From assembly GCA_022797375.1 (NCBI GenBank), contig JAAWKM010000025.1, positions 1 through 32,296 of the forward strand: 32,296 nucleotides of DNA, given 5' to 3'. Below the pieces are notes generated by a model. It saw only the letters and a program-made list of their open reading frames with translations. It ran no database searches and was not told where the DNA came from. Position numbers and translations under genes: made by a program. Shown in pieces: positions 8,774 to 24,430 of the stretch. Every line of letters begins with the position of its first letter. The stretch's first letter is position 1. The stretch is from Lachnospiraceae bacterium (GTDB taxonomy: Bacteria > Bacillota > Clostridia > Lachnospirales > Lachnospiraceae).

Positions 8774-9050
8774 GATAATTTCCAGTTATCTTGTGTTTTG
8801 TGATAAACGGACGGTTTCAGGTGCCAGAGCCAGAATATTCCATACAGGGGTACGCTTCCGCTACGATGGCATACGCAGCGGCACATAAAGTCCCTGTGTC
8901 CCAAAAGAAACTTACATTTCTCCTGTGACACAGGAACTTAAATGCCGGCGATGCCAAAGTACCCCTTTTATGGAATATTACTGGCATCTGGCACCTGAAA
9001 CCTGTCACTGTAAATTTGCAATAAAACCCAGAATAAGATAACTGGAAATT
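8774..9050 (+). repeat. fold-back unit A (about 277 bp imperfect palindrome)
   Basis: The ends AATTTCCAGTTATCTT (8777-8792) and its exact complement (9035-9050) pair. Further in, CAGGTGCCAG and CTGGCACCTG pair, then AATATTCCATA with TATGGAATATT, GGGGTAC with GTACCCC, GGCAT (8868-8872) with ATGCC (8951-8955), and CCTGTGTC with GACACAGG around an apical AAAAGAAACTTACATTTCT loop. A side hairpin CCGCT/AGCGG sits in the left arm. The first 76 bp recur with one mismatch at 32221-32296. Confidence 0.8.
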
Positions 9051-9138
9051 GGAGGGGAAGTATAACTAAGAAAACAATGAAATTGTATAAATAGTATTCC
9101 TGTATTTTACGTATGCCAGAATAAATTTCCACACCCAC

Positions 9139-9406
9139 TATTTCTAGTTATATTATCAATTGATTGTGCCAGTGGACAGCAGGTTTGCAGTTGTCCAGGC
9201 TGTAATATTCCATGACAGGGGCACTTTGGCATCGCCGGCGTTTAAATCCTTATGTTACAAAAAATGTTAATTTTTTGTAACATAAGGATTTTATGCGCCG
9301 TTGCGTATGCCATCGTAGCGGAAGCGTGCCCTGGAGTGGATATTACAGCCTGGACACGTAGAAAACCCTGCGTCCGTCCACCAGCAAAAGATAACTGGAA
9401 ATTATC
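9139..9406 (-). repeat. fold-back unit B, opposite orientation to unit A
   Basis: Read on the minus strand this has the same order of blocks as unit A: ATTTCCAGTTATCTT, GGACGGACGCAGG, the paired TGTCCAGGCTGTAATATTCCA-like arms (9192-9212 and 9337-9356), GCTTCCGCTACGATGGCATACG, and GCCGGCGATGCC. The apical stem is different from A: a perfect 19-bp stem (9246-9264 with 9271-9289) around a 6-nt loop. The left end is degenerate (ATTTCTAGTTAT at 9140). Confidence 0.78.
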
Positions 9407-22167: not shown

Positions 22168-23514
22168 TTACTGCCTTTCTATGCTGCATTTATGTTTAAT
22201 TAGTATTCCTGTTATATCTGCCAGTATCCAGCCAATAGGAATTGACCACCATATAGCTGTTACACCTAATGGTGTATTTGGTGCAAGGGTATAAGAAAGC
22301 AGAACTCTTGTACCAAGTGATATAATTGTTAATATAAGTGATATTCCAGACTTTTGTATTCCCCTGAAATATCCATATAACAGAAAAAGGCATCCAATTC
22401 CAAAATAAAATGTTCCTTCTATCCTTAAATATTTTACTCCTTCTGAAATAATTGCAGTTTCTTTTGCATCTACAAACATATACATAAACTGGCTGGAAAA
22501 TATCCATATTATTACAGATATAAACAGACAGAATGTAACAGATACAATGGCAGCGGTTTTTGTTCCTTTTTGTATACGTTCATTCTTTCCTGCACCATAA
22601 TTTTGTGAAATAAATAAAGAATATGCATTTCCAAATTCCTGTGCAGGCATATATGCAAGTGTATCAATTTTTACTGCTGCGGCAAAAGCTGCCATAATAG
22701 TAGTGCCAAAACTATTTATAAGACCCTGTATCATTAAAATGCCAAAATTCATAACAGACTGCTGCATCCCTGTAAATATATCATTTTTTATAATAATTTC
22801 CAGCCTTGTCCACTGCAGCCTGCCATGGAATCTAATAAATTCCGGGTATTTCCATATTGTATATAATGTAATGCCAATACCTGCAAATCCTTGTGAAATT
22901 ACTGTTGCTGCTGCCGTTCCTGGAATTCCCTTTTTTAAGGAAATGACAAAGTATAAATCAAGTGCAATGTTTATTATAGAGGATATTGCAAGAAAACACA
23001 ATGGTACAACTGAATTTCCAGCTGAGCGCAGAAGATATGCAAAAAAATTATAAAGAAATATAAAACCAGTTCCAATAAAAATTATTTTTACATATGTACG
23101 CATTAAACTATATATATTATCTGGCACTGAAACCATGCGCAGTATTATATCTGTCCCAGGAAATACAACCAGGTATATTAACAGGGTTACAGTGCCAATA
23201 AAGTAAAAAGATAATTGCACATCCTGTTGCATTTCTTGTAATTTCCCGGCACCATACCATTTTGAAAATAAAGCACCACTGCCCATACACAAACCAATAA
23301 TAATAGAATTTATAAATGTCATAAGAGTATACGCAGAACCAGCGGCAGCAAGGGCGTCTGTGCCAATATAGCGCCCAGCTATAAGAGTATCGGCAATATT
23401 ATAAATTTGCTGCAGGAAATTCCCAGCCATCATAGGCATTGCAAATAATAATAAATTTTTAAAAATATTTCCTTCTGTCAGTTTTGTGTTTTTATTAATT
23501 GTATCTGCAGGCAT
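22168..23514 (-). CDS. MATE-family multidrug/toxin efflux transporter
   Basis: This 448-aa membrane protein has about 12 predicted helices in two homologous halves. The first begins NLLLFAMPMMAGNFLQQIYNIADTLIAGRYIG, the MATE signature, with the second half repeating a similar start (TRLEIIIKNDIFTGMQQSVMNFGI). Its length is typical. MATE proteins export cationic drugs or metabolites by proton or sodium antiport; the substrate here is unknown. The ribosome site is weak (AGAAATGG). An inverted repeat and a fold-back transposable-type element lie upstream. It probably leads a two-gene transcript with the 94-aa protein. Confidence 0.92.
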   Translation of the reverse strand: MPADTINKNTKLTEGNIFKNLLLFAMPMMAGNFLQQIYNIADTLIAGRYIGTDALAAAGSAYTLMTFINSIIIGLCMGSGALFSKWYGAGKLQEMQQDVQLSFYFIGTVTLLIYLVVFPGTDIILRMVSVPDNIYSLMRTYVKIIFIGTGFIFLYNFFAYLLRSAGNSVVPLCFLAISSIINIALDLYFVISLKKGIPGTAAATVISQGFAGIGITLYTIWKYPEFIRFHGRLQWTRLEIIIKNDIFTGMQQSVMNFGILMIQGLINSFGTTIMAAFAAAVKIDTLAYMPAQEFGNAYSLFISQNYGAGKNERIQKGTKTAAIVSVTFCLFISVIIWIFSSQFMYMFVDAKETAIISEGVKYLRIEGTFYFGIGCLFLLYGYFRGIQKSGISLILTIISLGTRVLLSYTLAPNTPLGVTAIWWSIPIGWILADITGILIKHKCSIERQ

Positions 23515-23562
23515 AAAATAATTACCATTTCTTCTTTTTGATTTTATTATAACATAAAAGCA

Positions 23563-23601
23563 GCAGAGAATGTAGATAAAAATTTAAACTCCATTCTCTG
23601 C
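23563..23601. promoter_or_regulatory. inverted repeat upstream of the MATE gene
   Basis: GCAGAGAATG (23563-23572) and CATTCTCTGC (23592-23601) are exact complements 19 bp apart, 49 bp upstream of the MATE start. They might be an operator or a leader hairpin. The second arm is duplicated at 24290-24299, on the other side of the inserted element. Confidence 0.5.
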
Positions 23602-23617
23602 CACGTCCGTTTCATAA

Positions 23618-23905
23618 AATTTACAGTTATCCTGTGTTTGGAAACGGACGCAGAGTTTCCGTTGCCAGGGCGGGTTTATTCCACTCCAGGAAAGCATGTC
23701 ACAGACATGGCTTTTGCACACTTGCGTTACGTTAACCCACGCAGCGGCACATAAAGCCCCTGTGTTCCAAAAGAAACTTATGTTTCTTCTGCTACACAGG
23801 GGCTTAAATGCCGGCGGGGTTAAAGTGCACCTGTCATGGAATAAACCCGCCCTGGCATAGAAAACCTGCTGTCTTCTGGCAAAATGAATAATATAACTGG
23901 AAACT
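23618..23905 (+). repeat. fold-back unit C
   Basis: The ends ATTTACAGTTAT and ATAACTGGAAA are related to those of unit A. A perfect 21-bp arm pair lies at 23663-23683 and 23837-23857. Further in, TTAACCC (23732-23738) pairs with GGGTTAA (23817-23823), and AGCCCCTGTGT with ACACAGGGGCT around the AAAAGAAACTTATGTTTCTT apex. Confidence 0.78.
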
Positions 23906-24016
23906 GTATTGTGTGACAGGTTCCACATATTATATAACAACATTTATTACATTTGCTGTTATATAAATAATATCACAATATCTCCCGTTTGTCTGAATAA
24001 TTTAACACACAATAAA

Positions 24017-24274
24017 AATTCCAGTTATAATTTTAAGTTTGCCAGAAGACAGCAGGTTTCACATGTCCAGGCGGTTATTTTCCATGACAGAAGCACTTTG
24101 GCCCCGCTGGCGTTTGAATCTGGTTTTTTCAGATTTTATGCGCCGCTGCGTGGGCTGATGTAGCGGAATGCATGCAAAAACCATGTCTGCGGCATGCTTT
24201 CCTGGAATGGAATAATACCAGCCTGGCACTGGAAACCCTGCGTCCGTCTGCCAGCACACGATAACTGGAAATTT
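24017..24274 (-). repeat. fold-back unit D, opposite orientation to unit C
   Basis: On the minus strand it reads AATTTCCAGTTAT, GCTGGCAGACGGACGCAGGG, TGCCAGGCTGGTATTATTCC, CCGCTACATCAGCCCACGCAGCGGCG, then a short apical stem ATCTG/CAGAT, and returns through CGCCAGCGGGGC. Pairing is less regular than in C, but GCCC/GGGC and the outer arms are kept. Confidence 0.72.
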
Positions 24275-24430
24275 TATGAAACGGACGTGCATTCTCTGCC
24301 ATTATATGATATTTTATAATTATATTAAAACTTTACCTTCGGTTTTTACGATATAAAAAGTCAGTTTTTAAATTTAAGTGGCTTTATTATATTTATTTTT
24401 ATGATACATACATAAAAATATACTTTAGAA

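Follow-up and report, generated by a model that had tools for sequence, protein, structure and literature searches.

Bacterial MITEs are short, gene-less elements with inverted termini that duplicate their target and occur in many copies. Insertion sequences of the ISAs1 family duplicate 8 to 10 bp of target (ISfinder). TnGBS and related insertion sequences insert 15 to 17 bp upstream of the −35 region, and the passages of the source cited here present fixed-distance insertion before sigma-A promoters as a property of two Mutator-type transposase groups (PMC3942029). Palindromes of the REP/BIME type and those tagged GTAG or CGTC are 20 to 40 bp long and mostly proteobacterial according to the main text of their description, which contains no word beginning with clostridi or firmicutes (PMC3733652). 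Here, we report a 688-bp gene-less palindrome from a Lachnospiraceae genome (G000; 3.94 Mb in 269 contigs), its family in that genome, and the structured core that it carries. The palindrome lies in a contiguous stretch of 32,296 nucleotides, all of which was analysed and is called the window below.

The block is an imperfect palindrome throughout (inverted arms of 117, 110, and 34 nt; 70% self-complementary from end to end), has termini CACGTCCGTTTCAT, and begins and finishes with inverted copies of CACGTCCGTTTCATAAAATT (Table 1). An earlier note on this DNA had outlined such a block, and its coordinates were exact; the terminal inverted repeats of about 20 bp were present, and the perfect 10-bp target duplication lay directly at both flanks. 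The two fold-back units in opposite orientation that it had described are real and proved to be two copies of one structured core. The block with its duplications (708 nt) folded as DNA at −236.5 kcal/mol, versus −84.3 kcal/mol for 20 shuffles (standard deviation, 5.5; z, −27.8). Absence of a gene had also been claimed, and the sole open reading frame of at least 90 amino acids over the block (23584 to 23943, minus strand) had no Pfam match. The neighbouring gene was correctly named as a MATE transporter, and the inverted repeat of which the target was said to be one arm was present; this repeat may be operator-like. Searches for an empty site corresponding to the window copy, as the earlier note had suggested, found none, and the nearest MATE homologue (G023, 78% at the amino acid level) had no recognisable counterpart, by eye, in the short upstream stretch that was compared.

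Table 1. Features of the palindromic element and its left flank, in window coordinates
Feature	Position	Strand	Basis
Palindromic gene-less element (MITE-like), 688 bp, probably ISAs1-derived	23602..24289	.	Termini, inverted repeats, fold, copy search
Left target-site duplication CATTCTCTGC	23592..23601	+	Repeat analysis
Right target-site duplication CATTCTCTGC	24290..24299	+	Repeat analysis
Left terminal inverted repeat CACGTCCGTTTCATAAAATT	23602..23621	+	Sequence and terminus search
Right terminal inverted repeat	24270..24289	-	Sequence and terminus search
Fold-back unit 1, outer arm, 5' side	23655..23690	+	Inverted-repeat pair I3
Fold-back unit 1, outer arm, 3' side	23830..23865	+	Inverted-repeat pair I3
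Structured core, copy 1	23716..23828	-	Model R1, 85.9 bits
Structured core, copy 2	24093..24175	+	Model R1, 85.7 bits
Older inverted repeat GCAGAGAATG-N19-CATTCTCTGC; one arm is the duplicated target	23563..23601	.	Sequence
MATE gene, likely −10 box (TATAAT)	23546..23551	-	Promoter-like sequence
Best −35-like hexamer for the MATE gene, start 27 bp from the element	23569..23574		Promoter scoring
MATE-family transporter gene beyond the left end	22168..23514	-	PF01554

Among the 155 matches that a search of G000 with the element returned, many are fragments that overlap one another and come from either strand. The terminus WTTTTATGAAACGGACGTG (up to 3 mismatches) matched 245 times in this genome versus 9 times for the reversed control; across 60 other genomes the pattern stayed near the control level, save for a few real copies (e.g., in G014 and G018). 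Identical flanks in named contigs (L233 and L237) equate G014 and G018 with Lachnoclostridium sp. UBA7097 and UBA7122; UBA7097 is assigned to Lachnospiraceae, to which the window's genome and its family f1 would accordingly belong. Many contigs of G000 start or stop inside an element, and some joins may therefore be chimeric. Elements with both ends numbered 21 and were 51 to 694 bp long. Different inverted-repeat modules were nested in members at L137:2854–3062, L082:1111–1351, L166:1582–1844, and L056:1079–1519, and the simplest type of member seen was a 69-bp near-perfect palindrome (L144:2214–2282) composed of a terminus plus a CCCCATGCCGTGC stem. Copies without a CACGTCCGTTTCAT-type terminus at the end also exist, among them a second nested palindrome in the window (8774 to 9406, between a short open reading frame and a gyrA-like gene), which contains two cores (8850 to 8962, minus strand; 9221 to 9329, plus strand), is bounded by GATAATTTCCAGTTATC and its inverse in place of the CACGTCCG terminus, and has no flanking duplication by eye. 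A seven-copy repeat in G022 (L239 to L245, containing TTTATGAAGCGTACGTG), picked up by the terminus pattern, was rejected as a member of the family; its copies are near-identical, with like flanks in 7/7.

Exact 10-bp duplications flanked 4/21 two-ended elements (L137, L149, L072, and the window element), 10-bp duplications with one mismatch a further 2/21 (L117 and L169), and exact 9-bp duplications another 2/21 (L130 and L056). With end pairing shuffled, 0.2 exact and 0.07 one-mismatch 10-bp duplications were expected. The earlier note had named full copies without flanking duplications as an observation that would count against its view, and this was partly borne out: 13/21 two-ended elements had no duplication of 9 to 10 bp, and 8/21 had one (10 bp with at most 1 mismatch, or exactly 9 bp). 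Promoters, scored as described below, lay at both ends of 7 of these 13 and at one end of the other 6; among the eight with a duplication, 5 had a promoter at one end and 3 at neither. Promoters at the ends of the 13 elements suggest that recombination between copies has brought together the ends of two separate insertions, or that the 269-contig assembly is chimeric at these places.

The link to ISAs1 came from contig C42 (L160) of the same genome, where the terminus (at 1726) and the end of a reading frame (at 1736) are 10 bp apart. This frame scored 116.9 bits against the NCBIfam ISAs1 model NF033564 (cut-off, 70); another frame of the same broken gene reached 70.0 bits, and a third, small frame had no match to the ISAs1 model. 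The elements thus share the terminus of an ISAs1-family insertion sequence, one end of which is readable; inserted hairpins and the end of the contig cut off the other. The terminus was also found about 13 bp beyond ISAs1 fragments at two places in G014 (exact or with one mismatch) and in G006 (three mismatches), and a variant of it lay beside ISAs1 fragments in G044, a member of another family of the order. Because the terminus closes ISAs1 genes or fragments in the home genome and in relatives, the elements are probably non-autonomous, MITE-like derivatives of ISAs1. Two intact ISAs1 copies in G030 (99.8% alike over 1,254 bp; the one scanned scored 355.4 bits) have CACG...CGTG ends, with an exact 10-bp duplication at one and a 9-bp duplication at the other, a signature shared with the window element and its exact 10 bp. 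No intact transposase of this ISAs1 lineage was found in the window's genome. An IS256 next to the ISAs1 remnant was a further candidate for moving the elements; it was rejected because its ends, read by eye, are different. Many copies, common inverted termini, duplications of 9 to 10 bp, lack of a gene, and an ISAs1 remnant with the same terminus bear out the view, first put forward in the earlier note, of a transposed non-autonomous element. By the features tested, it appears to belong with ISAs1-derived miniature elements, and it would have been moved by a transposase of the ISAs1 type that acted on its termini in trans.

Placement relative to promoters was assessed for a subset of the 245 terminus matches, which supplied 131 distinct ends whose flanks were 75 bp or longer. 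Matches to TTGACA and TATAAT were counted at spacers of 16 to 18, with half a point deducted if the spacer was not 17. Scores of at least 9 were reached at 77/131 ends, compared with 20 in shuffled flanks, and 63/131 ends (1.84 in shuffled flanks) both scored at least 9 and had the −35 hexamer starting 17 to 20 bp away; for 57 of these ends the distance was 18 to 19 bp. At a score of at least 8 there were 107 ends, of which 78 had the −35 hexamer at 17 to 20 bp and 68 at exactly 18 or 19 bp. When similar flanks were merged, 120 clusters remained (70 scoring at least 9; 58 at an offset of 17 to 20). On the opposite strand, 21/131 ends scored, 1 of them at the 17-to-20 offset, and in the next 75 bp outward, 10/130 ends scored, none of them at that offset. 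A start codon with a ribosome-site-like motif followed within 300 nt at 62/78 promoter-facing ends (score of at least 8) versus 23/53 others. Statistically, about half of the family ends examined lie 17 to 20 bp, mostly 18 to 19 bp, upstream of a sigma-A-type −35 box. A fixed distance from end to −35 hexamer thus characterises the family but not the window copy taken alone, which is an exception, with its best promoter-like sites at offsets of 27 (left) and 2 (right). In other genomes, 12/22 ends scored at least 8 at 17 to 20 bp (L246 and L247 among these are near-identical in flank) and 10/22 were without promoter placement. The two intact ISAs1 copies of G030 are not before promoters (no end above 6.5 at 17 to 20 bp), so promoter placement is not general to ISAs1. 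The transposase, perhaps together with bound RNA polymerase or promoter DNA shape, may select the site upstream of the promoter.

The least familiar part of the element is the core. Its motif is approximately CGYYGGYRYTTA, followed by a variable stem, then by TTA(T)GYRCCRYTRCG, and lastly by the short AGC-GNRA-GCG hairpin. A first alignment of 45 sequences (21/22 from relatives, one with N being omitted, and 24/62 from the home genome, spanning types) paired in 93.5% of cells, with double changes in 24/29 pairs; sliding the partner by 1 to 3 columns lowered pairing to 28 to 49%. A wider set of 65 matches from 56 sources, in which some places are represented twice, gave 62 distinct rows; these paired in 92.3% of cells (29 to 43% in slid versions) and showed double changes in 28/29 pairs (538 cells versus 154 in shuffles), counts that lean towards the model because the rows were fitted to it. 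An unconstrained consensus fold contained 27 pairs, 26 of them with double changes. Four covariation measures were above shuffles, and a fifth, further pair types, was not (reached by 65/500 shuffles of the first alignment and by 400/500 of the wider one). At one pair of the core, the T-G wobble was the commonest form (26/45 sequences); such wobbles would fit RNA better than DNA, though they are no proof.

The core model matched 25/28 genomes of the genus, including G000, which has at least 144 copies (150 candidates scored), and with stricter filters the core was present in 23/295 genomes of an order-wide sample, all of them the home genome or of the same family. Against Rfam 15, the window gave only a tRNA at the gathering score, and 23 core-bearing loci gave six weak matches at permissive thresholds, all below gathering; the sole one overlapping a core (L050, MIR2646) had 25.5 bits against a gathering score of 245. 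A consistent gene context of the riboswitch kind was looked for in 25 loci and was not seen, contexts being mixed; in other genera, several copies stand just before start codons. The window element and one core unit from another genus had no match in phage and plasmid collections, and three exact core patterns had none in viral contigs; carriage by phages is therefore not supported. A literature search (titles and beginnings of abstracts, among the matches listed) returned no mention of the core or of promoter placement by ISAs1. At L325 and L330, apparently the same locus in two species, the core is similar and the self-complementary arms differ. Before rmlB in genus g43 (L338 to L342), two species have the core, two have another hairpin with GCTTGAGAGCGTAAC, and one has neither.

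In relatives, the elements that contain the core have termini of other kinds, and direct repeats of roughly 10 to 12 bp accompany some of them (by eye). G061, of genus g35, has at least 12 core matches, and 8 loci were compared (9 were given, and one was not recovered). Identity between these loci was 0.74 in the core and 0.59 and 0.57 in the arms, versus 0.56 for shuffled arms; the arm-to-arm score averaged 21.6 within a locus (11 to 27) versus 6.7 between loci (at most 13). The spacer upstream of rapZ holds a 182-bp insert in G061 and is without it in the sister G098; the core is also missing from this spacer in seven more species of the genus, one of which (G282) has a different inverted repeat. 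The rapZ insert has no clear duplication. Both of its arms are part of the insert, and an origin of the outer arms as inverted duplicates of neighbouring DNA was not supported at this site. Two further spacers measured 288 and 177 bp in G061 versus 6 and 13 bp in G098; at the 177/13-bp spacer, G098 has just a short stem, the outermost one, and may therefore have lost the remainder. These occupied and empty sites show that, in another genus, core-bearing hairpins are in all probability insertions. We tentatively suggest, with reservations that slightly outweigh our confidence, that the core represents a new class of structured mobile hairpins of Lachnospiraceae with its own way of insertion, having a conserved apex on long outer arms whose sequences, in at least one genome, vary between loci while the two arms of each locus still pair. 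It would also be carried by unrelated MITEs, and its carrier in the window's genome would be an ISAs1 lineage in which insertion before sigma-A promoters arose independently. Our best guess at its putative role is that of a selfish structured element which tolerates, or profits from, a place by transcribed DNA.

Taken together, we consider it highly probable that the block is a non-autonomous transposon of the ISAs1 lineage, moved by a transposase in trans, with about half of the family ends placed at promoters and the core as a mobile passenger. Its body is a set of nested inverted repeats, two of which carry the conserved core that is also found with unrelated termini elsewhere in the bacterial family, and the core, itself mobile, may have been trapped and amplified inside a promoter-seeking element. 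Placement here resembles that of TnGBS/ISLre2 without a linked Mutator transposase, and the 18 to 19 bp are close to the 15 to 17 bp upstream of −35 given for TnGBS-type insertion in the cited passages (PMC3942029), which favours a Mutator-superfamily transposase (ISLre2/TnGBS or ISKra4 type) as the mover. We think this very improbable, as the common terminus closes ISAs1 genes in the home genome, G014, and G006 (in G044, a variant of it does), and as a search confined to PF00872 yielded a full gene, the IS256 with ends that differ by eye, and a partial one.

A strongly structured and conserved core, several copies of which directly precede start codons in other genera, would also be expected if the fold-backs were intergenic regulatory or terminator palindromes that do not move and are maintained by selection, with duplications that arose by chance. 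Exact duplications well above shuffled pairing, sites filled in one species and empty in its sister, and the mixed gene contexts at 25 loci make that reading more improbable still. Targeting itself could be apparent, if ends lay near promoters only since insertions survive in intergenic, promoter-rich DNA; the flanks of family ends are A+T-rich, and non-genic insertions tend to fall near promoters. Against this, to which we give the least credence of all, stand the narrow peak (78/107 ends scoring at least 8) and its disappearance on the opposite strand and further out. The favoured reading, an ISAs1-lineage element with a passenger core, extends beyond that of the earlier note in the promoter-proximal placement of the family and in the conserved core. 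If it is true for ISAs1 derivatives, promoter-upstream insertion would be a convergent strategy that keeps genes intact and could change their control, and the dozens of promoter-facing ends in one genome are naturally occurring data from which the reading of promoters by a transposase can be studied. The core adds a covariation-supported hairpin, absent from Rfam 15 and multi-copy in many genomes of one family, that sits in insertions.

Compared with known systems, the family is like bacterial MITEs in having no coding capacity, inverted termini, many copies, and, in 8/21 two-ended elements including that of the window, target duplications; it differs in its nested inverted repeats of up to 694 bp and, in the window element, in two conserved structured cores. 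With the ISAs1 family it shares a remnant that matches the NCBIfam model, CACG...CGTG ends, and duplications of 9 to 10 bp, whereas the elements here are gene-less, palindromic throughout, and numerous (one genome has 245 terminus matches), and many of them, unlike the two copies of G030, precede promoters by a fixed distance. TnGBS/ISLre2 (p-MULT 3) and the ISKra4 lineage (p-MULT 4) likewise insert at a fixed distance upstream of a sigma-A −35 box, but theirs, in the cited passages, is 15 to 17 bp and goes with a Mutator-superfamily transposase, whereas the distance here is 18 to 19 bp and the link is to ISAs1 (PMC3942029). REP/BIME and GTAG- or CGTC-tagged palindromes, as the main text of their description presents them, are similarly numerous, intergenic, and often in opposite orientation, while the core reported here is longer, at about 80 to 113 nt, and has a second hairpin (PMC3733652).
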